A stretch of 64,000 bases of DNA from Moheibacter lacus. Lineage in GTDB: Bacteria > Bacteroidota > Bacteroidia > Flavobacteriales > Weeksellaceae. How positions within the stretch are numbered: the first letter of the stretch is position 1; each line of letters starts with the position of its first letter. Below, in pieces: positions 1-29,065 of this stretch. A program made the position numbers and the translations under genes. The DNA lies in NCBI RefSeq assembly GCF_014042165.1, contig NZ_JACDZE010000004.1, positions 186,001 to 250,000 on the forward strand, read 5' to 3'. Below the pieces are notes generated by a model that was not told the DNA's origin, made no database searches, and saw only the letters and a program-made list of their open reading frames with translations.

Positions 1-3
1 ATT

Positions 4-4949: not shown

Positions 4950-4956
4950 TTATTCT

Positions 4957-6818: not shown

Positions 6819-7741
6819 ATTACATTGATATAAATCTTCCCCATATTATTGATGCAAAAGACAAGCATTATGAAGGATTAATAGACTCAATTCGTAAGAA
6901 AATTAATGACATTACAGATTTACCCATAGTATCAGCATTTGATAATTACATTAATCCATATTTAGAAACAATAATAAAAGGGAATCCAATAGAATTATTG
7001 GAATGTCATAATAGAGTTGAGCCTCATCTAACACCAGCACTTACAACGACTATTCAAAAAGTTTTCAAATATCAAGGCTGGTTCGACCAAAAAAAGAAAA
7101 CTATGTACGATGCGTATAATTTAGCAGAAAATCTTGATATTCCTACTTGTACATATTGTAATAGAATCTATACTAAAACTGTAATAAATCCTTCCAAAAT
7201 AACCCGACCTACTTTTGATCATTGGTTTTCAAAAAGTGATTATCCTTTACTCGCATTATCCTTTTTTAATTTAATACCGAGTTGCTCTATTTGTAATAGT
7301 GGTGTAAAGGGAAATAATTCATTTCAGATTGATACACACTTTCATCCATATATTAAACATAACGATGACAATCTAAAAATGGATTTTAAATTTAGTTATG
7401 AACATAAAGACTACTCAACTTTTAAGTTTAAAATTAAGCATAATAATAAATTTTCTAAAGACTCAACAGAAGCCTTTAAATTAATAGAGATTTATGAAAC
7501 TCACGAAGATGAAATCACTGATTTGAGACGATTAAGAGATGTTTATTCTGATAAATACTTAGAAATACTCAAGAAAAATATTTTGAAAGACACTTCTATT
7601 TCAGATGAAGAAATATATCGATTGGCTTTCGGAACTTATATAGATGAAACAAAATTTGACAGACGACCTTTGAGCAAAATGAAAAAGGATATTTTAGAAG
7701 AGTTGGGAATATTAAAACATTTAAAGAAAAATGGGATTTAA
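6815..7741 (+). CDS. HNH endonuclease of the PtuB/Septu kind
   Basis: A 308-residue nuclease. The core is at residues ~110-165: a zinc knuckle CTYC (Cys112, Cys115), the motif FDHWFSK with the presumed general-base His136, then NLIPSC-SIC (Cys157, Cys160) followed by N-G-V-K-G-N. This layout (two CxxC pairs bracketing a D/E-H-x-x-x-K and an N) is that of PtuB-type HNH proteins, which pair with an ATPase in Septu and in some retrons. The rest of the protein matches nothing I know. It is coupled to ATPase A by an ATGA overlap and to ATPase B by an 11-base overlap, so it is probably the DNA-cutting subunit of both. No lesion is visible. Confidence 0.8.
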   Translation: MNYIDINLPHIIDAKDKHYEGLIDSIRKKINDITDLPIVSAFDNYINPYLETIIKGNPIELLECHNRVEPHLTPALTTTIQKVFKYQGWFDQKKKTMYDAYNLAENLDIPTCTYCNRIYTKTVINPSKITRPTFDHWFSKSDYPLLALSFFNLIPSCSICNSGVKGNNSFQIDTHFHPYIKHNDDNLKMDFKFSYEHKDYSTFKFKIKHNNKFSKDSTEAFKLIEIYETHEDEITDLRRLRDVYSDKYLEILKKNILKDTSISDEEIYRLAFGTYIDETKFDRRPLSKMKKDILEELGILKHLKKNGI

Positions 7742-9791
7742 ATTACTTGCAATTAGGCCACTTGAAAAATGTGGTGTGAAATTTCTTAAAAATTTAGAAA
7801 TGAATAGGATTTATAAATTCTATGACAATTATGAGTTTTATAATTCTCAAACTAGAATTGATGATTTACCTAAGACTGAAAAGTACAAAATTGTAGATAA
7901 TATTGTTGAAATAGAAAAATTACCTGTTGATTTTTTTTCTACTAAAATTAATATTTCTGCTATTATCGGTAAAAATGGTAGCGGCAAGAGTAGTATTATA
8001 GATTTGTTTATAGCCTCCATAAATCAAATCTCTCTAAAACTTAGAGATGACGGTTTTTTGAACACAACGGCAGAACTCGAATCAACTAACAAAGAAAAAG
8101 ATAATGAAAGTATAATTCATTGTGAGATATTTTATCAGATAGACAATACTTTTTTTCAAATAATTATTAATGATAATGACTTTACATTCAAAACTATAAA
8201 CATAAAAGGGGAAAGTGAATTTGATTTAAAACAATTTTTTTATTCTGAAGTAATAAGTTATTCTGTTTATGCTTTTAATTCCTGGGAAATTGGAGATTGG
8301 ATTGATTATTTATTCCATAAAAATGATTCTTATCAAATTCCTGTTGTAATTAATCCAAAAAGAGAAAGCAAACAAGATGGTTGGGCAGGAATAATTAATA
8401 TTAATACAGAGAGCTACCTATTACAACAAAGGTTATTGTCTATTATACTTTCTAATCCTAAATTTAGGATTACAGATAATTTGCCAACGGAATACTTAAA
8501 TCTAATTTTTAAAAATTCTAAAACTTTTTTTGCACTTAATGATAAGCAAGAAGGAAGGCAATATGAAGAGGAAGAAGAGATAAAGAATGATTTTTATAAA
8601 TTATTAAATTCTGAATATGGTATAAATTTTAATATGAATAATACCAGAACGCCTTCTACACTATACAAAAATTTAAAAGTTGTTTTAAAGGAGTTTAAAA
8701 CTAAATATGGTATCGATAAAATAGAAATCCCTGATTTTCAATATAAAATAGACCTCTATATTCTTTATAAAATTATAAGTATTTGCGAAAAATATGTAAG
8801 TTATAATCAATTTATAATTGAACAAGATAAACAAAGAATAACATTCTATACAATTGATATAAAAGCATTCCTAAGTAAAATTGAAAATAGCCAAAGTCAT
8901 ATTATCTTCAAATTAAAACAAATCATCAATTTTATTAAGAACTACGAAAAAATATGGTCAAAATATATAACCGAAGATTTTATTAATATCAAAAAATTAT
9001 CAGAAGAATTAAATTTAAAATCTGATAAAAATACTCCAATTATTGAATTGCTTCCTCCTCCTATTTTTCAAACAAAATTGTTTTCAAAAAATAAAATAGA
9101 TTTATTGGATAGAATAAGTTCAGGAGAAAGACAGCTTATTCATTCTATAAGTACAATTCTCTATCATCTTACTAACTTAAACTCAGTTGAAAGAGATAGC
9201 CATCTTAATAAATACAATTATGTAAATATTATTTTAGATGAAATAGAACTTTATTTTCATCCTGAATTTCAAAAACTGTTTATTAAAAGGTTGATTGATG
9301 AAATAAGCAAGCTAAGATTGAGAGATATAAGAGGTATTAATATATTAATAATTTCACATTCTCCATTTATATTATCAGATATACCAAAACAAAATGTTCT
9401 GTTCTTGGAACAAGGAAAACCTGTTGGCTTAGACAGATTTAAAAGCACAAACACATTTGCAGCCAACATTTCAGATTTGTTATCCGACTCTTTTTTTATA
9501 GGAGATGGACTAATAGGAGAATATGCTAAAAGCAAAATCTCTGAAACAATTGATTGGCTAAATTTAGCTAGAGAAGAGCAATTGAAAAATGAGAAATTAC
9601 AAGTAAATAAATTCGATAAGTTATCATCTAAAAAAGAAAATCATAAAAGGGTAATCGAAATAATAGATGAGCCAATTATTAAAAGCAAATTAATTGAAAT
9701 GTACTCTGAAATATTTGGTAATGATGCAAGAAGAGAGTACTTAGAAAAAGAAAAGGATAGAATCATAAAAGAAATTGAAGGTTTGAGTTAA
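7731..9791 (+). CDS. ABC/AAA-type ATPase B, paralogue of ATPase A, partner of the HNH nuclease
   Basis: A 686-residue ATPase with Walker A GKNGSGKS at ~80-87, signature ISSGERQLI at ~462, Walker B ILDEIELYFHPEF at ~499-511 and H-loop ISHSP. The C-terminal block ANISDLLSDSFFIGDGLIGE is nearly the same as in ATPase A, and both continue into a helical tail with an IIDEP motif, so the two genes arose by duplication. The ATPase is of the OLD/PtuA-like AAA_15/AAA_21 type, lacking a long coiled coil. Position just after the HNH gene suggests a hetero-oligomer of two ATPases with one nuclease, or a later back-up of the broken ATPase A. It ends one base before the start of jetA. Confidence 0.8.
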   Translation: MGFKLLAIRPLEKCGVKFLKNLEMNRIYKFYDNYEFYNSQTRIDDLPKTEKYKIVDNIVEIEKLPVDFFSTKINISAIIGKNGSGKSSIIDLFIASINQISLKLRDDGFLNTTAELESTNKEKDNESIIHCEIFYQIDNTFFQIIINDNDFTFKTINIKGESEFDLKQFFYSEVISYSVYAFNSWEIGDWIDYLFHKNDSYQIPVVINPKRESKQDGWAGIININTESYLLQQRLLSIILSNPKFRITDNLPTEYLNLIFKNSKTFFALNDKQEGRQYEEEEEIKNDFYKLLNSEYGINFNMNNTRTPSTLYKNLKVVLKEFKTKYGIDKIEIPDFQYKIDLYILYKIISICEKYVSYNQFIIEQDKQRITFYTIDIKAFLSKIENSQSHIIFKLKQIINFIKNYEKIWSKYITEDFINIKKLSEELNLKSDKNTPIIELLPPPIFQTKLFSKNKIDLLDRISSGERQLIHSISTILYHLTNLNSVERDSHLNKYNYVNIILDEIELYFHPEFQKLFIKRLIDEISKLRLRDIRGINILIISHSPFILSDIPKQNVLFLEQGKPVGLDRFKSTNTFAANISDLLSDSFFIGDGLIGEYAKSKISETIDWLNLAREEQLKNEKLQVNKFDKLSSKKENHKRVIEIIDEPIIKSKLIEMYSEIFGNDARREYLEKEKDRIIKEIEGLS

Positions 9792-9792
9792 A

Positions 9793-11112
9793 ATGAGTAA
9801 AAAAAACAATCCAAACTTTGACTTCGTTAAAATACTCAACGAGGACAAAACGTATAAACTTCTTTTCCCTAAAAGAGAAGTAGGATTGGCTATTGTCTTA
9901 ATTTTCGAGAAGATTGAAAACAAAACTTTTGAAGACGGTAAATTCACAGAAAAAGACTTACACGAAGCCTTTGAACAGATCTATATAACCAAAGAGCGTT
10001 ATCCGAAAGAAGTATACAGTGAGCAGATAATGAACTTTCAGGAATACTTCTTGGATTATGACCAACAAACTCAAAAGTACTATTTCAAAGATTATGCGTA
10101 TAAGTTTTGTAAGCACGCAAAAGAAACTTTACAGGGAGCATTTAATCCAACCCGGATCCAGAAAATCTGTATTCACCTGACAAACACTTTAAGAAACTCG
10201 AATGACCTTAGATTTTGGTTAGAAGAGGAGTTCAAGTAATACGAACCTGATTTAAGAGAACAAATAGACTTTCTTGATCGCCAGATTTCTTTATCTATTG
10301 AAGATTTAAAAAAAGAAACCAACCTGTTAAACCAAAGTTTTATTGATGTTTTAGTAGCAACCGAAGAACGTTTGACAAAATCACAATCTCACGTAAAAGA
10401 ATTACGATCCGCTTATTCTGAAACCAAAACTATGAGAGGATTATTGGAACAGAAAGATAATTCTGATAATGAGATTAACGGTTTGATTTCTGAGGTACAC
10501 TCTTTTATTAAATATATCAATGACCGATTAAATTCAATTGACCGGAAATTAGACCGGATTCAGCCTAAAATTCGCCAGCTTTTCTCGACTTTAAACAAGC
10601 CTGCTTTTAATTCCAAAATTGAAAAATTTATTTCATTTCTTCTTAAGAATAGCGAACTGGATAATAAAAAAAATATTATTTTTCCTCAGAAAATTCCCTG
10701 TCCTGTTGTACATATACCTACACCGAATTTTACCATAATTAGTAGAGATAAGGAACTGTTTCCACCTAAGCCCAAAGAAAGAAAACAGTATAAACAGAAC
10801 GAAAGTGTTATCAGTAAAAACAAGGAAAAAGTACTAGCGAAAATTAAGGAAATTGATACTATTCGAAAATGGGAGGATCTTATTCTATCTGAAATAGCAT
10901 TAAGAGGTCAACTTAATTTATCGGAAGTGTTTTTTAGAATTCTGAAAGAAGAAAACAACAGTCAGATAGCAGTAACTGCCCTTTTTAATTTGATAAAATA
11001 CACATACAATAATCCTGAGAAATTACGGTTGGCAATAGAAAAATCATTAGAAACAAAAGATGAATTTAAAAATGTATCACTATGGAAAATGTCGATAACA
11101 AAACTACAATAA
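9793..11112 (+). pseudogene. jetA: Wadjet JetA-like kleisin subunit, interrupted by an in-frame stop
   Basis: One frame of 440 codons is interrupted only by a TAA at 10237-10239. The N-terminal 148 residues (winged-helix-like, ending LRFWLEEEFK) and the C-terminal part (coiled coil with DRLNSIDRKLDRIQ, then a helical tail) read in the same phase, so a single base substitution (for example CAA or AAA to TAA) is enough. Identity as JetA comes from size, predicted kleisin-like architecture and position ahead of JetB-, JetC- and JetD-like genes; the sequence is divergent. A TTG at 10372 or another internal codon could restart translation, but would lose the N-terminal domain. The gene overlaps the next by 31 bases. 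Confidence 0.65.
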
Positions 11113-11729
11113 GTGATTTTTTATATGCAGAAAATGCAAAAGAACTTTTTGCAGAAATTGACTATCTTTTAAAAGATGGAATGCACTTTCAGAAACAAGG
11201 TAATCAGATACGTCATTTCAATTTTATCGATAAAAACATTGACAGCCTAAGGCTTTATTATCAGGATTTTTTCGATGTAGAGCTTTCTGAAGGAGGTGAA
11301 AAACCAATTAACTATTTCTATTTAGATTTTTACGGAAATAGTCGTGGAAACATATCTTCCCGACATAGGGAAATATTGAAAAGTGAGTATGTAATCATTG
11401 GTTTTATCATCTATAAAATCATTTATATTGATAAAGAAATCGATTTGGATTCAGTTCAAAAACTAAAAGAAAAAATAAGAATCGAATATGAAGACTACAA
11501 ACCGGGAATATATAGACTAATTGCAAAATCAAGAAATACTACTCCGGGAAATCTTAATGATAACACAATAGATAATACAATCCAGTCAGCATTGGAAGAA
11601 TTCAGAAAAATTGGCTGGATTGAATTAAGCAAGGATGAGTTTAGTTTACTTCCGGCTTTTGACAGGCTGATAAAGGTTTATGAAGAATATATCCTGAATA
11701 TTGATGAAACCCTAAATGAATTGAAATGA
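11082..11729 (+). CDS. jetB: Wadjet JetB-like (MukE-type) accessory subunit
   Basis: A 215-residue intact protein. It has a globular N-terminal half and a C-terminal helical part with the pattern IGWIELSKDEFSLLPAFDRL, which resembles the small winged-helix 'KITE' subunits (MukE, MksE, JetB) that bind the kleisin of SMC complexes. It starts 31 bases inside the end of jetA and ends with an ATGA overlap with jetC, the usual tight jetA-jetB-jetC packing. I assign it mainly by order and size. If jetA and jetC are dead, this gene is probably a non-functional remnant despite its open frame. Confidence 0.6.
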   Translation: MENVDNKTTISDFLYAENAKELFAEIDYLLKDGMHFQKQGNQIRHFNFIDKNIDSLRLYYQDFFDVELSEGGEKPINYFYLDFYGNSRGNISSRHREILKSEYVIIGFIIYKIIYIDKEIDLDSVQKLKEKIRIEYEDYKPGIYRLIAKSRNTTPGNLNDNTIDNTIQSALEEFRKIGWIELSKDEFSLLPAFDRLIKVYEEYILNIDETLNELK

Positions 11730-14376
11730 AAGACTATCCGAGAATAAAAAGGTTATCTACCTTGGGAATTATTCATCATCAGAATTTTGATTATGAATTC
11801 AGTCCTTTCAGAACCGACTTTGTTGGAGAAGGAGGAGCAGGAAAAAGTATGATTTCTGACCTTCTGCAATTGATTTGTGTTGGAACAAAAGCATTTCATT
11901 CACCAACGAAAAGTACACGTCCAAGAAAACCTCATACGATGGTATTAAGAACTGAGGGTAAAGGAACTGATATGGGTTATGCATTTATCAATATTGAAAA
12001 GGCTGAAAATCAATATTTGGTTATAGGTATTTATTTGGAGAGTTCAGGTACTTCCAATATGTTTATCATTCAGGACGGAAATAATTTTGATACGGATACT
12101 CAGTTGATTCCATTTTCGAAATTATTAGGAGTTGAAGATTTTCAAAAAAACAACACCATTTATCCAATCAATGAATTAAAAGAGCACATACAAAATAACT
12201 TAAGCCTGACTTGTGTATCTTGGGAAAGAACATCCAATTATCATAAGATACTTTTCAACAACAATATATTACCGATAGATCTTTCTCTGAACACTAAAAC
12301 ATTGGATAATTATGCTAAAATCATACAGGCATTTTCCAGAGAATCTTTGGATGTAAGTAAAAGTTATAGCTTACAATCTTTCTTATTTGGAGATGATAAA
12401 GAACAGGAATTAATTAAAAAGTTTTATGATACCGTAGAAGAATTACAAGAGGATACGGTACAGTTTGAAAATAATTTAGAAGAAATAGAGTCATTAACCA
12501 CCAAACAAAATCATCTTAGTGAATTACTGGATTTAAAGAAAGCAAAAGAAAATACTCATACATTATATTTAAAATCTTCCTATAACTATTATACAAATCA
12601 AATTTCCATAAACTCAAATAAACTTCAAACTCTGTTAAATGATTATTATTACAGTCTGAAATCATTTCCTTCGTTAAAAGAAAATATTTACGAAAAAATT
12701 ACTTGGACAAAAACAGAGTTAGAAAAAGTAGAACCAAAATGGGAAGAAGCTTTTAAAGTCAAAAACGAGCTAGAGGACAAAGTTTCCAAAAGGAAAAAAT
12801 TCTTCTCTTGGATGCAGGCCTTTAATTGTTCACAAGAAGAACTTATAGAAAAGTTCAATAAATACCATAAATCCAAAGATACTATAAACAAAATAAAGGA
12901 ATTAGAAGGACTTTTAAAATCTAAAAATATTCTTACTGCATTCAAAAGTAATGAGTATAAGGAGAGAAATATCGTCAATCAAATTGATAAACAACTTGAG
13001 AAGTTAGAAACAGATTTAGAGCTTAAAAATAAACTCAAAACTTTAAATAATATTGATGACAAACATTCTTTGGCTCACTGGGCTTTACAGTCACCGGATA
13101 AATTAAACTTGAATCAGGAAGCGATTATTCGTAAATATCAGAATGAAGGTGTCAAAATAGAAACTCCTGTTGATTCCTCAAAAAGATATATCCCTACTCC
13201 TGAAGTATTGCTGAACAATATTGTTGTATATAAAAGTGAAGATAAGGCGTTTTGGCTTAATCTCAATGGTGTTATCGAATTCTTTTCAACGGATTTTTCT
13301 CCAATTTTCAACACCCAAGATAAAAATAAGATAAAGGAATATTTTGAAAAGGAGACCACAAGTATTCTGAATGGTATTACAAGCTTAGAAAAAGAGATTA
13401 AAGAAAAAAACATTTTAAAAAATGTTTTCGAGAATTTAGAAAATCCTGATGAGTATCTAAAAGCGTGGAATACTCAAACAGATTTGGAAGAACAACTCGA
13501 AACTCACGAAATGTACGAAACAAGTCAAGAAGATTTCTTCGAATATTCCAATTTATACACTCAAAACTCCATTGAGGAAGATTTTAAACAAAGTAAAGTA
13601 GTATATTCTGGATTAAATAGGTATAGAAGTGATTTGACAACACTTAAAGATAATCTGACAAGAGAGTATGAAAACTTCTTTGAGTTGAAGTAAGTGAACA
13701 AAAGAATAATATTCGGGAAATACATAACTTTCTGAATTCCGAAGAAACAAAAATAACTGGAGGACATAAAGTAAGTTTGGATTATTATGATGAAAATTCT
13801 TTTTCCCCAAATTGGATGAATGAATTCACAGAAAACATTAACAAAGATTTTGAATTGGGTATTAATGACTCTTTATTTGAATCCGAAAAAGGAATTTCAA
13901 ATGATTTGGAAAAATACCCTTTATTAAAAGATAAATTATTACAAGCTTTTTATAGATCAGGAGGTTCACAAAGTTTAAAACCTACAATTAAAGATTTATT
14001 AAACCCAAAATCTTATTATAGTTTGAGATTTTCAATTAAGACAAGTCAAGGTAAAAAGAATGACGGAAGTACCAGCCAAACGTATGCAGCTATTTCCCTT
14101 TTATGTATTGCAAAATTGTCTTTATTAAACAAACAATCAAAGAATAAGTTTGTTGAATCCATTCGTTTTATGGCGATCGACGAAGCAGAAGGTTTAGGAA
14201 GTAATTTTGATATGCTTTATAAGATTGCTCGTGCAAATGATTATCAGATACTGTCCCTTTCTATTAATCCAAATAAAATTGATGCTGAAAAACAAAACAT
14301 ATATTTACTCCATAATAGTCAGGAAGATGAAAAAATAAATTATGATCCGATTCCTATTTTTGGCTCAACTAATTAA
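11726..14376 (+). pseudogene. jetC: Wadjet JetC-like SMC ATPase (MukB/MksB type), split by a frameshift
   Basis: The two frames together encode about 884 residues. The first (11726-13693) holds Walker A GEGGAGKS at ~33-40 and most of the coiled coil. The second, frame -1, is open from 13684 to 14376. It carries the rest of the coil, an ABC signature region around STSQTYAAISLLCIA and the Walker B MAIDEAEGLG. The shift lies between 13684 and 13693, where there is no homopolymer, so a simple sequencing slip is less likely. MukB-type GEGGAGKS and the IDEAEG box are characteristic of the JetC/MksB group. The protein would be shorter than the ~1,100 residues common for JetC. As it stands, each product lacks half of the ATPase site. 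Confidence 0.7.
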
Positions 14377-14387
14377 ATCGATAAATA

Positions 14388-15332
14388 ATGAAAAATGTCG
14401 AATGGAAATATTTAAAAGGTTTACATCAACTCTATACAGAGAAAAAAACTAAATTGAAAATTTTAAACAATGATTATATTAACCAGATATTGTTCACACA
14501 AAAAAAATTGATTAAGTATAAATCAGGCAATCACTCTATTATTGAAGCAAATCATCGATATCCACAATTCTATGAACAAGAGTTTTTAGATACTTATAAT
14601 TACTATAACGCTTTTTTTGAACAGTCAGGAATAGAAAACAATGCAAAAAAGCCTTTTACAGAAGAAGACCTAAAAGCCTTAATTTTCATTTATTATAATA
14701 AAACGGAACTTCAAAAGAACCTTACAACTCAAAAGAAATTTTCTGCAAAGGTTTTCAAATATGCAAATTCAAAATATTTAGAGAATAAACCAAGCTTAAA
14801 AAATGCTGTTTTGCAATTATTAGAAATTAATGAGTTTCCGGAAAAAGATCCCAAAAATCAACAATGGAGATTTGTTGTAGATTGTCTGGATCCTAAAGTT
14901 ATCGTTTTATGTGAAAATTTAGATTGTCTTAAAGTACCGATAGAATACAAGAAAAACAATATAGAGCTGTGGTATGTAGGTGGTCAAAATACCAAACCTT
15001 TGTTAGATATTCCCTCAGAAAAATTGCAATTGCCACTTTATTATTTCTGTGATTGGGATTATAGTGGTCTTTCTATCTATTCTCAAATAAAGAAAATTTT
15101 TGATGCGAAAGCCAAAAACATTGAGATAATACAACCATTATCAAATGCCAAAAGACTACCTGTATCTGTAAAGCATCATAAAAGTAAATGGAAGAAAGCA
15201 GAGTTTTCAGGTTTAGTAAAAGCTGATTTCGCAGAAGAACAGATCGAATTAATTCAAGAGCTAATTTCTAAGGAAGAGTGGATCGAGGAGGAAGCTATAG
15301 AATTGATTCAGGTGTTAAACCTAAAAGGATAG
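14388..15332 (+). CDS. jetD: Wadjet JetD-like Toprim nuclease
   Basis: A 314-residue protein with a Toprim fold in its C-terminal half: VLCENLD (conserved Glu, ~176), GGQNTKP, then YFCDWDYSGLSIY with the DxD metal-binding pair at ~221-223. This arrangement is that of JetD (DUF3322/DUF2220, topoisomerase VI-like), the subunit that cuts circular plasmid DNA once the SMC complex has extruded it. The N-terminal half is mostly helical and divergent. It is shorter than typical JetD (about 380-400 residues). It starts 11 bases after jetC and closes the island. The catalytic residues are intact although jetA and jetC are broken. Confidence 0.72.
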   Translation: MKNVEWKYLKGLHQLYTEKKTKLKILNNDYINQILFTQKKLIKYKSGNHSIIEANHRYPQFYEQEFLDTYNYYNAFFEQSGIENNAKKPFTEEDLKALIFIYYNKTELQKNLTTQKKFSAKVFKYANSKYLENKPSLKNAVLQLLEINEFPEKDPKNQQWRFVVDCLDPKVIVLCENLDCLKVPIEYKKNNIELWYVGGQNTKPLLDIPSEKLQLPLYYFCDWDYSGLSIYSQIKKIFDAKAKNIEIIQPLSNAKRLPVSVKHHKSKWKKAEFSGLVKADFAEEQIELIQELISKEEWIEEEAIELIQVLNLKG

Positions 15333-15537: not shown

Positions 15538-15723
15538 GTTCGAATCCCTCTTTCTCCGCAAAGAAAAACCGATTGGGAATCCAGTCGGTTTTTTTTATGT
15601 GAAAAAAGCGTAAAAAGTTTGCTTTCAAATGGTTTTGAATAAAAAAATAGATGCGAAGCATTAATGGTTTTTGTTTGTAGTACTTCCTTTTTCGGATTCA
15701 ATGAGTTATTCCTCTTTCTCCGC
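15538..15723 (+). repeat. Left copy of a 186-bp direct repeat: tRNA 3' end, terminator and downstream flank
   Basis: The repeat is matched by 28663-28848 at the same length with about two mismatches (15563 G/T and one in the TTATT/TTAAT stretch near the end). It opens with GTTCGAATCCCTC...CTCCGCA, the T-loop and acceptor 3' end of a tRNA (tRNA-Ser-like), but no tRNA body precedes it. A strong terminator follows. The last 13 bases, CCTCTTTCTCCGC (15711-15723), repeat the tRNA 3' end of the first part (15548-15560). This is the structure left by site-specific integration into the 3' end of a tRNA gene (an att site). Reading frames that cross it are not genes. Confidence 0.85.
15566..15596 (+). 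terminator. Terminator inside the left repeat
   Basis: AAACCGATTGG (15566-15576) pairs with CCAGTCGGTTT (15581-15591) around a GAAT loop with one G-T wobble, followed by a T-run. It is the kind of intrinsic terminator found directly after a tRNA gene, and here it follows only the tRNA 3' end. Confidence 0.75.
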
Positions 15724-16023
15724 TGAGTAAGAAAATAAAAGTTTTCAAAATCACTCAAAAATCTTTAAAACCTTTGATTATCAATTAATTACAGGTATTT
15801 TTTTTATGCTTATGACTTTTCAAAATTTTGAAAAACACTCCTTAAGTTTTTAAAAATTGTGTCCACTTTTTGCAGACGATTTACAATAATAGATTGTTTT
15901 ATTTTTTGCGTTTTGAATAATAATTTCAATGGAAATTAGGTATATCTTTAGCGAAGATAATTTTTTTTTGAATATTATTATAAATTGAATTTTTTTCAAA
16001 AATTATTAATAAAATCATTAAAC
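15724..16023. other. AT-rich intergenic stretch upstream of the CHAT gene
   Basis: No gene is visible. The region is almost pure A/T with short T-runs. It must contain the promoter of the CHAT gene; the nearest Bacteroidota-like box is TATCTTTA at 15943-15950 (consensus TAnnTTTG, last base off), with a TTTG at 15912-15915 that is spaced too far away to be convincing. No Shine-Dalgarno site precedes the ATG at 16024. Confidence 0.4.
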
Positions 16024-18849
16024 ATGAAGTACCTCTCTCTATTAATTGCTTGCTTTTTTTTGATTTCAGGTTCGCAATCATCTTCTATTGCGATACAAGA
16101 AATTGTTTCGGTTTCGACTGAAAGTGAAAAAGAAATATTAAAGGAAATGAAACGAGACTACAAAGATTTAATGGATTCAGGTGAAAGAGAAAAGGCAATT
16201 GAAAAAGGACTTATAGCACTTGAATTTTCTAAAAAATTTACCTCATTTTATTTTCAAAATGAAGCAATTGAGATTCTTTTGGATTTAGGTTCCATGTACT
16301 CGCACCTCAAACTTTACAAAGAAGCTCTTTCCATTTATAATGATGCCCTGGAAATTGAAAAAAAAATATCCCGATCTCATTCCGATCAGAAATTAAAAAT
16401 TTATTACCTGATTGCGTATGTAAATAATGAGGTGGACAATTTTAATGAAAAGATGAAAGCTTTGGAAAAAGCAGAGCAAATCATTGATCAAAATGAAATT
16501 ACGGATAAACAGTGGGTTTATAATGTCTTCATGTTGTTTGTCCATTCCTACATCTATTATGGAGATATGGAAATGGCTAAAAAATACCTGAAAAAAAGCA
16601 ATTTCGTTTTTGAATCCAATCAAGAAGATGCCAATTTCATGAAGTTGGAAGAAGAAAAACATTTGGTTTTGAAATCTAATTATGCCAATTATCTTTTGAC
16701 CAACCTGAGAGTCCCGATCATAGAAGGAAACCATCAGGAAGTCACAAAATATTTCAATCTGTTTGAAAAGGAAATTGACAAACAGAAAACGGATTATGAC
16801 GAAGAAGATTTATGGTCGATCAATAATCTGTACATCCAAATGGCACTTTACCATACCCGCTATTTGCAGGATTATGAAAAAGCCGTTCCCTATTTTGAAG
16901 ATGTATTGGAGATCAATCAAAGAAATAATTTTCAATGGGGAATCCTAGATGTAAGCTATTTTTTCGCCTACCATTATATACAAAGTCAAAATTTGGAAAA
17001 AGCCATTTATTATTTAAAAGAATGTCTGAAAAATCCGGAGTATGAAAATTATACCTATGCCGTGACCATTCATCAAAATCTGGGGTCGTCTTATTTCTAC
17101 AATTGTGAATTTGAAAATGCAGTCAAACATTTTGATCAGATGATGAATTCCTACAAAACAGAAAAGGAGACCTATCAGGGTGTATATGCCATGCGTGACT
17201 TGTATGAAGTGGGAAATATTTACATCGAAATTTATGAAGACCTGAAGGACAAGAAAATTTTGCAGAAGGCTTATGAAGCTTTTCGGATGAGTTCCGAATT
17301 GTTTTCTTCTGTATATCAGGGAAATATTTACAATGATTATTTATCGGTTCATCACCGTTTTATCACCGATGGACTGCTTTATTGTTCGTTTATTTTAAAG
17401 GATAAACAAAAAGAAGCGATGGAATTAATCGAAATGAACAATTCCGATTTTTTATGGACCAATTTTATCAAAAAACAATCTGAGGGATTTTTGAATTTCC
17501 CCATCGAATTGAAAGAAAATCTCATCCAGCTGGAAAATGAAACGCAAAAGCTGGAACTACAGTTACAAACTAAAAATGAGGATGATAAATCAGATTTGAA
17601 TGAATTAAAAAATGAATTAAAAATTAAAAAAGACAGCATTACAAAACTCAGTGCTCAACTGGAAACGGAGTTCCGGTCTTTTCACAATTTTACCAAAAGC
17701 AGCATCAGTTTAGATGCGATACAATCTGATTTAGAAAAGGATGAAATCATCATCAAACATATCGTAACGGATTTCGGTTTATACACTTTGAAATTAACAA
17801 AAACAGAAGCTGAAATCAGGAAAACATTGGTTTCAGAAAACTATTTGAGCCAGCAGGTCGGGCTGTATCTGCAAAATTTAAAAGAACGTTCGCCTCAGTA
17901 CAAACAACTTTCCAAAGTACTTTATAAAATTTTGGTCGAACCTTTGAATCTAAAAGAAAATCAAAAAATTATTTTCATCAACGACAGCTTTTTGAGCTAT
18001 TTGCCTTTTGAAACTTTGATGGATGAAAAGGATTTTTTTTTATTGGAAAAAAAACAAATCAGTTACTCTAATTCACTTAAATTATGGAATATACAACGTC
18101 AGAAAGGAAAAGTTAACACTTCCAATTTCATTGCCTTTTCGCCGGAATATTCAGAAAATAGTTTTGAAAAAGATTCTCTTCTAAATGCTCAGGAAATAAA
18201 CGTAGAATTAAGAGGAGCAAAAAAAGAAGCAAATCAAATTTCTAAATTATGGGACGGTCAGCTTTATGATGGGCAAAAAGCATCAAAAACTAACTTTCTG
18301 AAATTTGCCAAAGATGTAGATATTGTTCACCTTGCGATGCATGCCGTGGTGGATGAAACAGATAACAATCAGTCCAATTTGATTTTCCAGGGAAATGAAC
18401 GACTTTATTTTCATGAGTTTTATGAAATTGATTTGCCGGCTCAGTTAGTTGTATTAAGTGCTTGTAATACAGGTTTAGGAAATGTGAAAGCGGGTGAAGG
18501 AGTGATAAGTATTTCACGTGCGTTTACTTTTTCCGGTGTAAAAAGCACCCTGATGAGCCTTTGGCAGATTCCGGACAAGGAAACACCGGAAATCATGCTT
18601 TCATTTTATGAAAATTTAAAAGCGGGTCAGACCAAAGATGCAGCTTTGCAAGAAGCAAAATTGAATTATCTGAAGAATACAGAGGTGGAAGAATTGAAAC
18701 ATCCTTATTATTGGGCAGGATTTATCGTAACAGGTGATACGAGTTCTCTGAATGCGCAACCGGACTGGATTTGGTGGATTATTATCGGATTGGTAATTTC
18801 AGCAATTTTGTTTTTCGTATTCAAAAAAAAGAATTCTAATTCAATCTAA
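16024..18849 (+). CDS. TPR-CHAT caspase-like protease, secreted and membrane-anchored
   Basis: A 941-residue protein. It starts with a signal peptide (MKYLSLLIACFFLISG). TPR-like helical repeats fill about residues 60-480, a coiled coil runs ~490-560, and a CHAT (caspase HetF-associated with TPRs) domain covers ~620-900. The catalytic pair is visible: HLAMHA with His773 and LSACNTG with Cys814, followed by the conserved GEGVISISRAF, SLWQIPD and HPYYWAGF boxes. One transmembrane helix (~918-937) and a lysine-rich end close the protein, so the protease should sit in the periplasm tethered to the inner membrane. I chose the ATG at 16024 because the signal peptide begins there; an upstream TTG at 15985 only adds an unlikely leader. 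The 3' end overlaps the convergent anti-sigma gene by 9 bases. Confidence 0.88.
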   Translation: MKYLSLLIACFFLISGSQSSSIAIQEIVSVSTESEKEILKEMKRDYKDLMDSGEREKAIEKGLIALEFSKKFTSFYFQNEAIEILLDLGSMYSHLKLYKEALSIYNDALEIEKKISRSHSDQKLKIYYLIAYVNNEVDNFNEKMKALEKAEQIIDQNEITDKQWVYNVFMLFVHSYIYYGDMEMAKKYLKKSNFVFESNQEDANFMKLEEEKHLVLKSNYANYLLTNLRVPIIEGNHQEVTKYFNLFEKEIDKQKTDYDEEDLWSINNLYIQMALYHTRYLQDYEKAVPYFEDVLEINQRNNFQWGILDVSYFFAYHYIQSQNLEKAIYYLKECLKNPEYENYTYAVTIHQNLGSSYFYNCEFENAVKHFDQMMNSYKTEKETYQGVYAMRDLYEVGNIYIEIYEDLKDKKILQKAYEAFRMSSELFSSVYQGNIYNDYLSVHHRFITDGLLYCSFILKDKQKEAMELIEMNNSDFLWTNFIKKQSEGFLNFPIELKENLIQLENETQKLELQLQTKNEDDKSDLNELKNELKIKKDSITKLSAQLETEFRSFHNFTKSSISLDAIQSDLEKDEIIIKHIVTDFGLYTLKLTKTEAEIRKTLVSENYLSQQVGLYLQNLKERSPQYKQLSKVLYKILVEPLNLKENQKIIFINDSFLSYLPFETLMDEKDFFLLEKKQISYSNSLKLWNIQRQKGKVNTSNFIAFSPEYSENSFEKDSLLNAQEINVELRGAKKEANQISKLWDGQLYDGQKASKTNFLKFAKDVDIVHLAMHAVVDETDNNQSNLIFQGNERLYFHEFYEIDLPAQLVVLSACNTGLGNVKAGEGVISISRAFTFSGVKSTLMSLWQIPDKETPEIMLSFYENLKAGQTKDAALQEAKLNYLKNTEVEELKHPYYWAGFIVTGDTSSLNAQPDWIWWIIIGLVISAILFFVFKKKNSNSI

Positions 18850-19548
18850 TTTTCCCAATAATTCTTTGGTTTCCTGAATTTTAAATCGATTTGATTTTAA
18901 GTTTTCCTGAAGTAGTCTTTTGGCTGATTCCACATCCTTTTGTTTCAATTTGGCAAGTGCAAGATACCAGGTTACTTTGTCCGCAAATTTTTCTGTCCAA
19001 GCATTTGATTCCCAGATTTTCACAGCTTCTTCCGTATGGTTTTCGCTCAATAAGGAATTCGCCTGATAAAAAAGTGCATACTCTTCTTTATTTTTTTTAT
19101 AAAGGGATTCAAATAAAACAGAGGATTTTTCAAATTCACGATTGTCATACGCCATAAAAGCTTGATTCTTCAGATCATTTTCAGTATTTCCACTTCTGAC
19201 GGTTGAATGTATGATGTTTGGATATTCTTCATAATATTCTTGATACAACTGTTCCGTAGAATGATTTTGATTTAAAAATGCCCAATAAAAACCTAAAAAT
19301 AACACAACCGAAGCCGCTGCGTACCAAATAAACCTCATTTTCCTAGGCGTATTATTCTTTTCTATTTGAACTAATTTTTCACGTAATTTTTCTCTTTCGT
19401 TCAGGGTAATGGCTTTCTTTAACTGTAATCGGAATTCAAATTCTTTTTTAAATTCAGCATCCGTTGCCAAAAGATTTTGAAAAATGACTCTTTCTTCCTC
19501 TGTGAGAGAATTTTCAAAGTTTTTTACAATTAAGTATTCATGATTCAT
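18841..19548 (-). CDS. Membrane-anchored TPR anti-sigma factor (putative)
   Basis: A 235-residue protein with a cytoplasmic N-terminal ~70 residues, typical in size for a sigma-binding domain (NSLTEEERVIFQNLL pattern). A single membrane helix follows (~71-89, IWYAAASVVLFLGFYWAFL), then a periplasmic part with two or three TPR-like helix pairs. Its start overlaps the end of the sigma gene by four bases (ATGA), the classic sigma/anti-sigma coupling. It faces the CHAT protease gene tail to tail. By analogy with regulated proteolysis of anti-sigma factors it would hold the sigma factor at the membrane until cut. The functional assignment is inference from topology and neighbours. Confidence 0.7.
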   Translation of the reverse strand: MNHEYLIVKNFENSLTEEERVIFQNLLATDAEFKKEFEFRLQLKKAITLNEREKLREKLVQIEKNNTPRKMRFIWYAAASVVLFLGFYWAFLNQNHSTEQLYQEYYEEYPNIIHSTVRSGNTENDLKNQAFMAYDNREFEKSSVLFESLYKKNKEEYALFYQANSLLSENHTEEAVKIWESNAWTEKFADKVTWYLALAKLKQKDVESAKRLLQENLKSNRFKIQETKELLGKLD

Positions 19549-20087
19549 GATTGGTTTTTTATAAGTTCTTTTAGTTTTTTCAAACAGCGGGCTTTTTGAC
19601 TTTTGGCTACATCTTTATTTTCATACTTCATGATTTCCGTAATATGATCCAGTTTTTTTTCTTCATAATAAAACAAAGTCAGGATTTGCTGACATTGTCC
19701 TCCTAATTTTTTGAGGTTATCTCTCAAAAGGTTCACGTTTTCATCAGGTTCCAAATCAGACTCCGTTTCCCATTCTATTTGAAAATCTTTTAATTCTTCA
19801 TTTAAAACAGCAGGTTTCTCGCTTTTCATTTTTCCAAAAATCATATACTTTCCGATGGCAAAAAAATAGGTTTTCAGTGAACTGTTCAGTTCATCCAACT
19901 TTCCTTTTCTGGCGTTTTCACAAAGTGCGATGAAAGCATCTTGATAAACATCTGAAATCTCATCTTTGGCCATCTCATATCGGCTTGCAAAACGTGAAAA
20001 TTCAGATTTGTGTTCTTTATAAAAATGCTGAATTGTTTTTTCATCACCTTTTTTCAATAAGCTAATTATCTGATAGTCTTTATTCAT
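19545..20087 (-). CDS. ECF-type RNA polymerase sigma factor
   Basis: A 180-residue sigma-70 family protein without region 1 or 3. Region 2 includes DEISDVYQDAFIALCEN, and region 4 is a helix-turn-helix around LDHITEIMKYENKDVAKSQ followed by a basic end, as in ECF factors of Bacteroidota that accompany CHAT/TPR genes. It is first in a two-gene unit with the TPR anti-sigma (ATGA overlap) and is read away from the barrel and lipoprotein genes at 20223-23437, with 135 bases between. It probably directs transcription of its own operon and of those divergent genes. No consensus promoter could be identified in the gap. Confidence 0.88.
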   Translation of the reverse strand: MNKDYQIISLLKKGDEKTIQHFYKEHKSEFSRFASRYEMAKDEISDVYQDAFIALCENARKGKLDELNSSLKTYFFAIGKYMIFGKMKSEKPAVLNEELKDFQIEWETESDLEPDENVNLLRDNLKKLGGQCQQILTLFYYEEKKLDHITEIMKYENKDVAKSQKARCLKKLKELIKNQS

Positions 20088-20222
20088 TAGTGTGAAATTT
20101 ACATTTTGGTAAGCATTTTATTTTTCTGATGTTTACTTTTTCCTTTTTCCTTCACTAATTAAAGAAATCGCTTTGTATCGTCAGAGCTAAATGTTAACAA
20201 TTATAAATTAATTAATGAAGTT

Positions 20223-20730: not shown

Positions 20731-21303
20731 ATGAAAAGAATAATTAAGAAATTCATTGCATTTGCAGTCCTTTCAGTTTCTTTGATTGCTTGTTCGGGTA
20801 GTGATGATAATAACGATCCAGGCGCCCCTCAGGGAGATGACAACCCAACGCATCGTTACACATTTAAAGTCAATGGAAACGATATTGCGAACGCTACGTA
20901 TGCATTTGGAATTCCGTATGATGACCATGGAGGTGGACTCGCTTATTTTGAGCCTGAAAATGATTATGTTGTGGTCTCTGCCTATCATCAGAACAACGAT
21001 CCGGGAATCAAAGCCGACTTTGTTTACTTAGGTGATATCATACAACCTTTAGCTCTGAATGAAACGGATAATCAGGATACTTCCGTCATATTTGTGAATT
21101 TCACGCATCAAGGACAGAATTATACACTGGAAAGTGTTTCCGGAACCTGTACTTCCTATTTTATGGAAACATTTCCTTTCGGTGTCACCAATTCAGGAAA
21201 ATCTACATTTAAAGTTGGCTTCTCGGGGACTTTCCGGAATATAGTCAACATCAACGAAACCTTTCAGATAACGGAAGGGGAAATAGAAGTTTATAACAAT
21301 TAA
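20731..21303 (+). CDS. Small lipoprotein, family member 1
   Basis: A 190-residue protein with a type II signal (VSLIACSGSDDN), lipidated at the Cys and followed by an acidic linker that favours surface export in Bacteroidota. The mature part shares with the genes at 21316 and 22841 a pattern of HQGQNYTLESVSGTC and a C-terminal FKVGFSGTF strand, so the three are paralogues. No enzyme motif is visible. It is tightly packed between the barrel gene (10 bases) and the next lipoprotein gene (12 bases). Confidence 0.75.
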   Translation: MKRIIKKFIAFAVLSVSLIACSGSDDNNDPGAPQGDDNPTHRYTFKVNGNDIANATYAFGIPYDDHGGGLAYFEPENDYVVVSAYHQNNDPGIKADFVYLGDIIQPLALNETDNQDTSVIFVNFTHQGQNYTLESVSGTCTSYFMETFPFGVTNSGKSTFKVGFSGTFRNIVNINETFQITEGEIEVYNN

Positions 21304-21315
21304 AAAATACAAAAC

Positions 21316-21867
21316 ATGAAAAAATTAGAATTTATATTTATTTGCTTATTTGCCATTGCAATCACAGCTTGTTCAAGCGATGATAACGGCGACCAACCCG
21401 GTCAGACCGGAGGAGATCATTCGTACACCTTTACAATCACTGGTCCCGGAGTGAATGGTGAAACTTTTACAGCCACGGTTCCCAATCAGGAAATTTATAA
21501 TTTTTATACGCCTATTCCCAACTCGTCTTACATGGGAGCTTATTTTTCATTATCGAATGGAACTGAAACCATTGCAGGGAATTTTCTAAAAGATAATAAC
21601 AACATCCGTCCGTTGGGCGATAATTCCGGAAACAATATTGAAGATTCCCAATTAAACATCATATTCAGCCATCAAGGACAGGTTTATACCTTGGAAAGTA
21701 TTTCCGGAAATTGTAGTTCTGAAAGGTTTGAAGTAGGTACGGAAGGTTCTACCGCTTCATTTAAAATTTCATTTACAGGTGTTTTTACGGGAGGTATTAC
21801 GGGAACCAATGATCCTGAAGAATATCAAGTTACGGGCACGGTTGACACTAAATTTTACCAAGATTAA
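21316..21867 (+). CDS. Small lipoprotein, family member 2
   Basis: A 183-residue lipoprotein with lipobox AITAC and the acidic tether SSDDNGDQPG. Its core repeats the family features HQGQVYTLESISGNC and FKISFTGVFTGG seen in the gene just upstream, so the two arose by tandem duplication. No catalytic residues are recognised; an extracellular binding or structural role is possible. It lies in the same + strand unit, 12 bases after its paralogue and 12 bases before the next gene. Confidence 0.75.
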   Translation: MKKLEFIFICLFAIAITACSSDDNGDQPGQTGGDHSYTFTITGPGVNGETFTATVPNQEIYNFYTPIPNSSYMGAYFSLSNGTETIAGNFLKDNNNIRPLGDNSGNNIEDSQLNIIFSHQGQVYTLESISGNCSSERFEVGTEGSTASFKISFTGVFTGGITGTNDPEEYQVTGTVDTKFYQD

Positions 21868-21879
21868 ATTCATACAGAT

Positions 21880-22806
21880 ATGAAAACAATTTTTAAATTC
21901 ATGACTCTGGTGTTCTTTATCGGATGCGGAATCAATGGCAATGCTCAATTTCTAAAAAAATTGGGTGAGAAAGTAGAAAATGCGGTTGAAAGAAAAATTG
22001 ATAAAAAAACAAAAGAACAAGAAGCAAAATTAGACCGTAAAATAGAAGAAGGTGTAGATAAGGTTTTTGATACACCCGAAGATGCGATCAACGAGGAAAT
22101 TAAAAAAGAAAAAAACAACAAAAAGGAAAATAAGAAGGCCAATAATAAATCGACTGATATCAGTATCGAAGACATGATGGGCGCCATGCAGTCTTCAGCT
22201 GATATCGAAGTTGCAGGAAAATACCATTTCAATCAGAAAGTTTTGTATACCCTCAGGGATAAAAATCAAAACAAATCCAGTGAACTTACGTATTACTTCG
22301 GTACGGATAAAGGTATTTTGGGAGTGGACATGTCTGCTGATGCAAACGCATTTATCCTTTACGACATGAAACAAAATGCGATGATTATGTTTTCCAATAA
22401 AGACAAAACCATGCAGGTAATTTCCATGGATATGTTTGGTGCGATTTTCGGAAATTCGGAAGAGGAAGATCAAGATGATTTCACGTTCAAAAAAGTACCG
22501 GGTTCTAAAAAAATTGCCGGTTACAATTGCGATAAATATGAATTAATATCTGAGAATTTAAAAGGAGAATTCTGGTTTAGTTCGGAAGTGGATATTGATA
22601 TGAGTCAATTTTCAAAAGCTTTTCTCAGTGTTGGGAAAAACGCAAGCGAAAAGCTACCCAGTTTCAAAGTTTTACAAAATGGATTTATGATGGAAATGAA
22701 TACTGTCGATGAACAAAACAACTTCAGTACTTCCATGACCGTCCGGGAAATTTCCAAAACCAATCATTCCATCAACACCTCTCAATACAAACGGATGCAA
22801 ATGTAA
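21880..22806 (+). CDS. DUF4412-like exported protein
   Basis: A 308-residue protein with a signal peptide ending NGNAQ. A strongly charged helical segment of lysine and glutamate runs ~25-95, and the following beta-rich domain (GKYHFNQKVLYTLRD, KKIAGYNCDKYEL, FWFSSEVDIDM) matches the DUF4412 type, which resembles LolA-like periplasmic folds. The function is unknown; such domains often bind hydrophobic ligands. It sits inside the lipoprotein cluster with short gaps, so it is probably made together with them. Confidence 0.65.
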   Translation: MKTIFKFMTLVFFIGCGINGNAQFLKKLGEKVENAVERKIDKKTKEQEAKLDRKIEEGVDKVFDTPEDAINEEIKKEKNNKKENKKANNKSTDISIEDMMGAMQSSADIEVAGKYHFNQKVLYTLRDKNQNKSSELTYYFGTDKGILGVDMSADANAFILYDMKQNAMIMFSNKDKTMQVISMDMFGAIFGNSEEEDQDDFTFKKVPGSKKIAGYNCDKYELISENLKGEFWFSSEVDIDMSQFSKAFLSVGKNASEKLPSFKVLQNGFMMEMNTVDEQNNFSTSMTVREISKTNHSINTSQYKRMQM

Positions 22807-22840
22807 AAGGGATTCTTAATTAGTAAAACAAAATCAAATC

Positions 22841-23437
22841 ATGAAAAAAATCTTAAAATTCTCGTCAATGATGTTTTGCATCCTTGCGATGGTCATTTCT
22901 TGCGGACAAAATCCTGAAGAAAATGCCAAAAATAAAGTGGCCGAAGAGTTAGGCATCGACAAATCCGATTTGGAAAATCAATCCTATTACAGTTTAACAA
23001 TCCAGAAAGGAACTTTAAAAGGTGTGCAATTTTCTGTTCCGGATTATGTAAGTACCTACGATGGATTCCGAGCTGATGAAAACGGCAATGTACAGTTGAC
23101 TTCCGTAACTTTTGTGGATCCTCAACAAGGAAATTCTACTGCAAACATCAGCTGGGACGGAAACCAAACCAAAGCCCTCAGCGCCAATCCTGATGCAACG
23201 GAAGGTACATTTTTAGAATTCAAATTAAAAAAAGATGGAAAGGACTATCATTTCACATCGATCAGCGGACAGACCAAAGTCGAGTCTTATGAAGATGTAA
23301 ATATCAAAGACGAAATGATCAATCATACATTCACTAAAAGAAATGTGAACATGAGTTTTTCCGGATTGTTTAAAGAAAATATTTCCGGCGAAGAAGTTAA
23401 AATAGAAGGAATTGTACAATTTGTAAATTCAAAGTAA
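22841..23437 (+). CDS. Small lipoprotein, family member 3
   Basis: A 198-residue protein with lipobox VISC at Cys21. A short helical start follows (AKNKVAEELGIDKSDL), then a beta-rich body. The segments DYHFTSISGQTKVESY and VNMSFSGLFKENISG align with the matching strands of the lipoproteins at 20731 and 21316, so this is a more distant third paralogue. It ends the compact + strand unit; a 115-base AT-rich gap separates it from the next gene. The function is not recognised. Confidence 0.72.
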   Translation: MKKILKFSSMMFCILAMVISCGQNPEENAKNKVAEELGIDKSDLENQSYYSLTIQKGTLKGVQFSVPDYVSTYDGFRADENGNVQLTSVTFVDPQQGNSTANISWDGNQTKALSANPDATEGTFLEFKLKKDGKDYHFTSISGQTKVESYEDVNIKDEMINHTFTKRNVNMSFSGLFKENISGEEVKIEGIVQFVNSK

Positions 23438-28662: not shown

Positions 28663-28848
28663 GTTCGAATCCCTCTTTCTCCGCAAATAAAAACCGATTG
28701 GGAATCCAGTCGGTTTTTTTTATGTGAAAAAAGCGTAAAAAGTTTGCTTTCAAATGGTTTTGAATAAAAAAATAGATGCGAAGCATTAATGGTTTTTGTT
28801 TGTAGTACTTCCTTTTTCGGATTCAATGAGTTAATCCTCTTTCTCCGC
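28663..28848 (+). repeat. Right copy of the 186-bp direct repeat: tRNA 3' end, terminator and flank
   Basis: It is collinear with 15538-15723 and differs at about two positions. It opens with the tRNA T-loop and acceptor sequence GTTCGAATCCCTC...CTCCGCA without a tRNA body, contains the terminator at 28691-28721, and ends with a second CCTCTTTCTCCGC (28836-28848). The near identity over 186 bp, 13 kb apart, points to a recent duplication or to ongoing gene conversion. Confidence 0.85.
28691..28721 (+). terminator. Terminator inside the right repeat
   Basis: This is the same AAACCGATTGG / CCAGTCGGTTT stem, GAAT loop and T-run as in the left repeat. Confidence 0.75.
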
Positions 28849-29065
28849 AGAATGATAAAAAATATCGCTGAAAATCAACGGGTTTCTAGTTTGATGGTGT
28901 TTGCTTTATGAAGTTTTGGACCAAATCGTATCATTTTTTTGCTTATTCCCTAAATTTTTCTTGATTCATGATATTCGAAAAAGTTTATTTCATAGAAATT
29001 TTGCCAATATATTCTGAAATTACACCGAATAATTGACCATGAAAACTTGTATTTATAAAATCAGC
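28849..29065. other. Non-coding gap between the right repeat and obg
   Basis: Nothing recognisable is seen apart from a short ATG-started frame of 19 codons beginning at 28852, too small and unsupported to call. With the degenerate 28300-28662 stretch this makes ~760 bases without an intact gene. Confidence 0.4.

Follow-up and report, generated by a model that had tools for sequence, protein, structure and literature searches.

Genes and domains of the trio

The window examined here is a 64,000-nucleotide stretch of the Moheibacter lacus genome (Bacteroidota; Weeksellaceae; NCBI accession no. NZ_JACDZE010000004.1, positions 186,001 to 250,000). It carries a trio of genes encoding a TPR-CHAT protease, a membrane TPR protein predicted to act as an anti-sigma factor, and an extracytoplasmic function (ECF) sigma factor. 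The trio had been proposed in an initial annotation of the window, and it is confirmed: the CHAT and anti-sigma genes lie tail to tail with their 3′-ends overlapping by 9 nt, and the anti-sigma gene starts on the sigma gene with an overlap of 4 nt. The features discussed below are as follows.

16024–18849, + strand: TPR-CHAT protease, 941 amino acids from the ATG at 16024; predicted to be secreted, with a C-terminal membrane anchor
15985, + strand: alternative TTG start of the CHAT gene, adding 13 amino acids if used
18226–18228, + strand: Glu735 of CHAT, predicted S1-pocket residue, in helix 730–742 after strand 702–706 of the model
18340–18342, + strand: His773 of CHAT, predicted catalytic, identical in 153/153 aligned linked CHATs
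18463–18465, + strand: Cys814 of CHAT, predicted catalytic, identical in 153/153 aligned linked CHATs
18574–18576, + strand: Asp851 of CHAT, second covarying residue (Asp to Glu or Asn), immediately ahead of helix 853–866
18841–19548, − strand: membrane anti-sigma with a predicted periplasmic TPR domain, 235 amino acids
19273–19329, − strand: membrane helix core of the anti-sigma, residues 74–92
19192–19197, − strand: predicted scissile bond Arg118/Ser119 of the anti-sigma, within loop 106–125
19545–20087, − strand: ECF sigma factor, 180 amino acids

The CHAT gene is the only one found in the 2.77-Mb genome. Its product matches PF12770 (E 3.1e-58; 198 bits against a cut-off of 24) along with TPR families, and the catalytic dyad first suggested, His773/Cys814, is correct when numbered from the ATG at 16024. 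The signal peptide and C-terminal anchor are borne out at the level of crude tests only, both of which the protein passes. Amongst solved structures the closest fold to its model is Csx29 (Z 30.9, root-mean-square deviation 6.2 over 587 residues), a TPR-CHAT fold, and the model also resembles the separase protease domain (Z 27.8, deviation 3.0 over 310). Searching the Protein Data Bank with a profile of the full CHAT alignment was uninformative, as it was swamped by TPR matches, and a profile of the CHAT domain alone returned no separase amongst its 8 matches.

The sigma factor is recognized by the sigma70-ECF model TIGR02937 (54.1 bits against a cut-off of 42.9). The anti-sigma was expected to be a membrane TPR protein, and this holds: it has a single membrane helix with its N-terminus predicted to lie inside, in agreement with an AlphaFold2 model (mean predicted local distance difference test score 91). 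Its TPR_6 match falls slightly under the Pfam cut-off (24.2 against 26.3 bits). The best Foldseek matches of the model are solved TPR domains, headed by 2xev (E 1.5e-3), and nothing was returned at E 0.001 or better. No anti-sigma domain was matched in Pfam, and the NCBIfam anti-sigma models scored far under their cut-offs (20.2 against 200 bits and 15.2 against 100 bits). A helix with positive-inside charge is found by crude count in 177/189 linked anti-sigmas and missing from 12, and the CHAT protein and the TPR part of the anti-sigma are predicted to lie on the same side of the membrane.

Linkage of the trio across Bacteroidota

The trio recurs across Bacteroidota. A profile built on three anti-sigma seeds matched 184/395 genomes of the phylum at E 0.001. 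After removal of the window's own match, all 82 places with E ≤ 3.6e-10 were examined with 8 kb on either side (less at contig ends). A sigma gene is adjacent in 74/82, and a CHAT gene lies within 8 kb in 60/82 and within 300 bp in 24, in orientations that vary between tail to tail, same strand and divergent. This sample is biased towards linkage because all three seeds came from CHAT-linked loci. A second sample, without seed bias, was led by CHAT; it comprises the best 80 of 559 confirmed loci, and so represents those closest to the window's CHAT rather than CHATs at large. The named genomes in it belong to Flavobacteriaceae, Cytophagales, Saprospiraceae, Chitinophagaceae, Sphingobacterium and others. 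The anti-sigma is present in 73 of these 80 loci, with sigma adjacent in 73/73, and in 63/73 it is on the opposite strand within 300 bp of CHAT, mostly tail to tail. Of the seven loci without the anti-sigma, four are on stretches of 3–10 kb (L172, L186, L187 and L237), and L237 has a weak match.

With at most 12 first-look CHAT candidates per several-megabase genome, chance linkage is estimated at about 4% or less per 17-kb stretch. A chance neighbourhood can be rejected, as the linkage is seen from both search directions.

Within the window's family the trio is rare: amongst 148 genomes at the Weeksellaceae level, anti-sigma matches were found in 5 and CHAT in 6, M. lacus included, and three of the five anti-sigma matches are weak (E 5e-7 to 9e-4). 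In a congener (G009) the block is the same, CHAT and anti-sigma being 28% and 44% identical to those of the window, and an outer-membrane gene (L014, 4629–5123), similar by eye, stands in the same divergent place. In another member of the family (G059), CHAT, sigma and anti-sigma are all on one strand.

Co-occurrence had been proposed as a check on the trio, and it was found to be close in one genus (g34) of 121 genomes, 50 of which have CHAT and 51 the anti-sigma. Both are found in 46, CHAT only in 4, the anti-sigma only in 5 and neither in 66 (Fisher 7e-23, uncorrected for relatedness), with the intactness of the sigma pair examined in the fetched loci rather than in all 46 genomes. Loci were read from all the CHAT-only genomes but G602: in two of the three, a divergent anti-sigma is present and a sigma gene lies close by (L153, L155), and the 9 kb of the third locus hold no anti-sigma (L154). 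Amongst the anti-sigma-only genomes, three carry one open reading frame (ORF) matching both sigma and anti-sigma (L106, L150, L151), G603 is 75% complete with its sigma pair on a 7.5-kb contig, and G648 has a weak match. In the phylum-wide sample, no sigma gene adjoins the anti-sigma of G426, and the 180 genomes with CHAT do not include G366, G426 or G456.

Single-chain fusions of sigma and anti-sigma are found in genomes without CHAT (L106, 7608–8579; L118, 7524–8552; L150, 7650–8675; L151, 7995–8948). Where aligned (L106 and L118, the latter from G456), the fusion holds sigma region 2 and the membrane-TPR part in one chain; sigma region 4 is missing, as is most of the N-terminus of the anti-sigma. 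We considered whether the fusions are decaying remnants and rejected this, as the ratio of nonsynonymous to synonymous substitution rates is 0.12, 0.10 and 0.08 in three pairs of L106, L118 and L150 (three pairs with L151 were saturated). They therefore appear to be under selection and to have been remodelled instead of rotting.

Matched residues in protease and anti-sigma

Between its membrane helix and its TPR part, the anti-sigma has a linker with a single strongly conserved residue, Arg118, which is 26 amino acids beyond the membrane core. In an anti-sigma alignment of 100 rows (L106, L118 and L130 were dropped as having no CHAT in reach), the residue is Arg in 83% of 75 linked rows. It is invariant in 29 picked rows, comprising the window and 28 chosen from the 73 CHAT-led loci; the one Lys row, L244, is not one of the 28. 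The residue following Arg is Gly, Ser or Ala in 135/149 cases, and linkers without Arg carry Met (TMS, TMG, TMD) or Lys.

The CHAT column that tracks the switch at Arg118 is position 735, which was picked out before the sample was enlarged. An alignment of 153 pairs was then assembled, to which the first set contributed 75, the CHAT-led loci 72 and the genus 6, leaving out L152, L157, L158, L162, L163, L165 and L211 (CHAT-less, distant, near-copies or truncated). A further 40 loci were sought in another family with a profile of non-Arg anti-sigmas, of which 36 have CHAT; L246, L261, L266 and L268 were dropped as having none in reach. L233, in which CHAT is split, was dropped from the combined set. 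Amongst the 188 linked pairs that remain, 148 combine Arg with an acidic residue 735 and 38 combine a non-Arg linker, mostly Met, with a non-acidic one, leaving two mixed pairs. Removal of identical pairs gave 145, 38 and 1 + 1 (185 pairs). When 390 CHAT columns were ranked, 735 came first (phi 0.97) and 851 second (0.92 when scored by identity and 0.38 when scored by class of residue). Asp at 851 mostly changes to Glu or Asn. Columns 771 and 769, which lie beside His773, were third and fifth.

The scoring was not blind: L069 and L086, rows in which the alignment had slipped by one, were assigned to Arg on inspection, and for the last 36 linkers the scoring was done by eye with residue 735 shown alongside. 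We also give the counts from a crude automatic rule, which accepts any Arg followed by G, S, A, N, D, T, Q, Y, E or L 8–41 amino acids past the membrane core. It yields 148 Arg with acidic, 1 without Arg with acidic, 17 Arg with non-acidic and 22 without Arg with non-acidic, an association that is weaker because Arg elsewhere in the segment is counted too.

The Fisher probability over the 188 pairs (1.7e-37) cannot stand alone because it ignores descent. It is conceivable that a few old lineages of the locus simply happen to differ at both residues, and the CHAT tree holds just 3–4 independent switches, none of them discordant, which is too few for a sign test to become significant (median p 0.25 and 0.5 in two pair sets). 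Shared descent nevertheless appears improbable as the whole explanation: residue 735 changes in each separate non-Arg clade, it ranks first of all columns with 851 behind it, and in 9 genomes that supplied separate loci of both types, each sampled locus fits its own partner. The product of within-genome permutation probabilities over these genomes is 2.3e-4, although the genomes share some old switches. The rank of 735 at a place that meets the P1 residue in related enzymes is a better argument than the Fisher value.

In gingipain, the P1-Arg is gripped by an Asp where helix 1 begins, and MALT1 likewise uses an Asp at or in helix 1; for separase, a computational model places a Glu near helix 1 and an Asp in helix 4 around P1-Arg (PMC4626109). 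In the metacaspase TbMCA2, the helix-1 residue Asp95 takes part in substrate binding (PMC4357240). By their order and position in the fold, rather than by superposition, we infer that CHAT residues 735 and 851 are counterparts of these P1-holding residues. Taken with the covariation, these positions would indicate direct cleavage after Arg118, and the matched changes suggest that CHAT and the anti-sigma are paired as enzyme and substrate. The initial annotation had suggested that the protease may cut the TPR part itself. The fit of enzyme and substrate speaks for cleavage of the anti-sigma, with the module conserved, both proteins predicted on the same side and their residues covarying, but a cut in the linker at Arg118/Ser119 is likelier than one in the TPR part.

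An unlikely alternative is that the Arg118 motif sits in the S1 pocket of CHAT as a pseudosubstrate and is not cut, the real substrate being another envelope protein; the anti-sigma would then serve as an inhibitor or anchor of the protease, or be sensed by it. Covariation fits a contact at S1 and cannot separate cutting from docking, and Arg118 is retained where CHAT is missing. Against docking, Arg118 is in a predicted loop and is followed by a small residue, as a cut site would be, and the His/Cys dyad is unchanged throughout the 153 aligned CHATs.

Several observations weigh against a dedicated protease that cuts at Arg118. Arg is also found at this position in 60% of 25 unlinked rows, and the ERG motif is retained in genomes without CHAT (L091, L106, L118), which can be explained by another use of the residue, by the action of a CHAT from another place or by a recent loss of CHAT. 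A Lys clade (L113, L119, L128) combines Lys with a hydrophobic residue 735, for which charge pairing gives no explanation, and the mixed pairs L092 (Arg with Arg735) and L244 (Lys with Glu) break the pairing. Residue 851 is mostly still acidic in the non-Arg type (Glu 27, Asp 5, Asn 6, Ala 1; n = 39). The crude thresholds for signal and anchor are both passed by just 127/189 linked CHATs, and one distant CHAT clade has no anchor. The scarcity of independent switches described above belongs here too. It had also been held that a pair occurring frequently without CHAT would speak against the idea, and here the evidence divides: no CHAT lies within 8 kb of 22/82 anti-sigma homologues, so the sigma/anti-sigma pair can stand without a linked CHAT, whereas in genus g34 both are found in 46 of the 55 genomes that have either.

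All considered, CHAT is probably a periplasmic, caspase/separase-like site-1 protease of an ECF sigma pathway that operates without CRISPR, and cleavage after Arg118 by the neighbouring CHAT is the most likely mechanism. At rest, the sigma factor would be kept at the membrane by the TPR anti-sigma. CHAT, with a predicted topology that anchors it in the same membrane facing the periplasm, would be activated by an envelope cue, perhaps through its TPR part, and would then cut the anti-sigma in the linker that joins its membrane helix to the TPR domain. The covariation suggests that residue 735 decides whether this cut follows Arg118 (Arg type) or Met (Met type). By analogy with RseA, the truncated anti-sigma would then be broken down, probably by an intramembrane protease of general function together with one in the cytoplasm. 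The freed sigma factor may then transcribe its own operon and the divergent outer-membrane and lipoprotein genes from a promoter of the GTTTAC type.

Promoter-like motif, related systems and surrounding DNA

The following features lie beyond the sigma gene.

20131–20158, + strand: promoter-like motif GTTTACYTTTT-N11-CACTAA, the single exact copy found in the genome
20223–20720, + strand: divergent outer-membrane beta-barrel protein (PF13505), a likely sigma target
20731–23437, + strand: lipoprotein-like (by eye) and DUF4412 genes, possibly in an operon with the gene at 20223

The motif emerged when gapped words ahead of the sigma genes were counted, which gave GTTT..CACT words; refinement led to GTTTACYTTT-N11..13-CACTAA. 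Across 143 loci, 73 matches of at least 14/16 lie within 350 bp upstream of sigma, 5 lie upstream of CHAT and 69 elsewhere, with 1.6 expected per bin. The 73 are spread over 45/143 loci, and 98 loci have none. In the M. lacus genome, the exact copy stands 64 bp ahead of the outer-membrane gene. With three mismatches allowed there are 20 matches against 136 for a reversed control, and since the control exceeds the pattern, weak matches carry no meaning. Generic AAC/CGT patterns of ECF promoters were hardly enriched. The sigma factor probably drives itself and the divergent genes.

These counts bear on whether CHAT is an output, its linkage to the pair reflecting nothing more than membership of the sigma regulon or an effector role in that stress response. 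CHAT is upstream on the opposite strand, more than 300 bp away, in 27/82 anti-sigma loci, and in those of the 27 that were read, lipoprotein and surface-protein genes lie between. The five matches upstream of CHAT exceed the roughly 1.6 expected. A further point against the protease as input is a 13/16 match at 15861, one of 9 in the 64 kb, which precedes the start of CHAT by 163 bp, so CHAT may itself be a sigma target. Matches upstream of sigma, however, outnumber those upstream of CHAT about 15-fold, and an output role leaves the covariation of Arg118 and residue 735 unexplained. That CHAT is nothing but an output is doubtful, slightly more so than docking; it is more likely an input than a target, and a double role is possible, as the two could coexist.

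The initial annotation had likened the trio to Craspase, a type III-E system of Cas7-11, the TPR-CHAT protease Csx29, Csx30 and CASP-sigma, in which the protease cuts Csx30. The likeness holds as logic, in that a TPR-CHAT protease meets a substrate that inhibits an ECF-like sigma (PMC10028731, PMC11106740), and does not hold as membership: no Cas7-11 or CRISPR genes were found amongst the neighbouring ORFs profiled (10 + 6 + 8 proteins), the search being confined to these. Craspase is RNA-guided and bound to Cas7-11, and its Csx30 is soluble, whereas the window's CHAT is predicted to be secreted and membrane-anchored, its anti-sigma is a membrane TPR protein, and the predicted site mostly has Arg. 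The known Craspase cuts are A/S, L/D and M/K, and so follow A, L or M (PMC11106740). These residues resemble the non-Arg type here, and three printed alignments with Csx29 have a gap where Glu735 would fall, in a weakly aligned region.

DegS, a PDZ serine protease, is the first protease of the RseA pathway. That RseA-DegS-RseP route to sigma-E, like RsiW, shares with the trio a membrane anti-sigma and stepwise proteolysis starting outside the cytoplasm (PMC10028731), whereas here the gene of a clan CD cysteine protease is linked to its predicted substrate. DdvA, going by the titles and names of its PDB entries (8rot, 8rw5) a transmembrane anti-sigma of Myxococcus, was matched in the fold and profile searches and likewise brings a CHAT domain, an ECF sigma and an anti-sigma into one pathway. 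In PMC4374960 its trigger is given as not known. Its solved chain is named a CHAT domain-containing protein; the CHAT domain is within the anti-sigma polypeptide, unlike the separate gene of the window, which is not of the DdvA type. Separase shares a repeat region combined with a clan CD protease domain, cleavage after Arg and acidic residues proposed at S1, but it is eukaryotic and its substrate is cohesin. In EACC2/caspase neighbourhoods, a caspase-type enzyme is near an ECF sigma and a TPR (DUF1822) gene; the domain families are others, the proposed context is immune, and no membrane anti-sigma is described in the part of PMC8195603 available.

It seems somewhat more probable than otherwise that a phylum-wide family of such channels exists, in which stand-alone periplasmic CHATs serve as dedicated site-1 proteases and a short code (Arg118 or Met; Glu735 or a small/hydrophobic residue, with Asp851) separates parallel channels in one cell. 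If so, a large group of bacterial TPR-CHAT proteins would have a natural role independent of CRISPR, ECF pathways of Bacteroidota would have a dedicated first protease, Craspase would gain a neighbour in a broader deployment of CHAT proteases against inhibitors of sigma factors, and a simple protease-substrate code could be tested. A literature search on CHAT or TPR-CHAT with sigma or anti-sigma returned no paper on the module, though it did not cover the main ECF classification paper and a prior mention is possible.

A defence island of low GC (0.28) occupies window positions 1–15332. It includes ABC-3C genes at 4–6318 (CTD4, MComp1, SMC/ABC-type) and a Mks/Wadjet-like set, with MksE at 11082–11729, a MukB-like gene at 11726–13693 and a JetD-like gene, under the Pfam cut-off, at 14388–15332. 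We rejected CHAT as a gene of this island: PADLOC matched only the JetD-like protein amongst six, and CHAT is not assigned to the island because its relatives travel with the sigma pair. Near-identical direct repeats of about 190 bp are found at about 15538–15725 and 28663–28850. The repeat opens with the 3′-end of tRNA-Ser(TGA), of which the intact gene (L309) lies 102 kb upstream. The trio and its surface-protein genes are in the 13.1 kb that separate the repeats, where the GC of 0.353 is close to the 0.363 beyond. In four congeners, no tRNA was found beside obgE within flanks of 1.5 kb.

Another CHAT protein (L016, 2742–12494; G055) has no sigma pair in the stretch read and lies next to genes that by eye resemble caspase-type ones. 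Three g34 loci (L073, 9817–15999; L078, 521–6784; L090, 9490–15560) carry a fixed block after a divergent sigma pair, which comprises a lipoprotein, a large surface protein, CHAT and a 145-amino-acid gene whose product, by its motif, is a putative retropepsin-type aspartyl protease.

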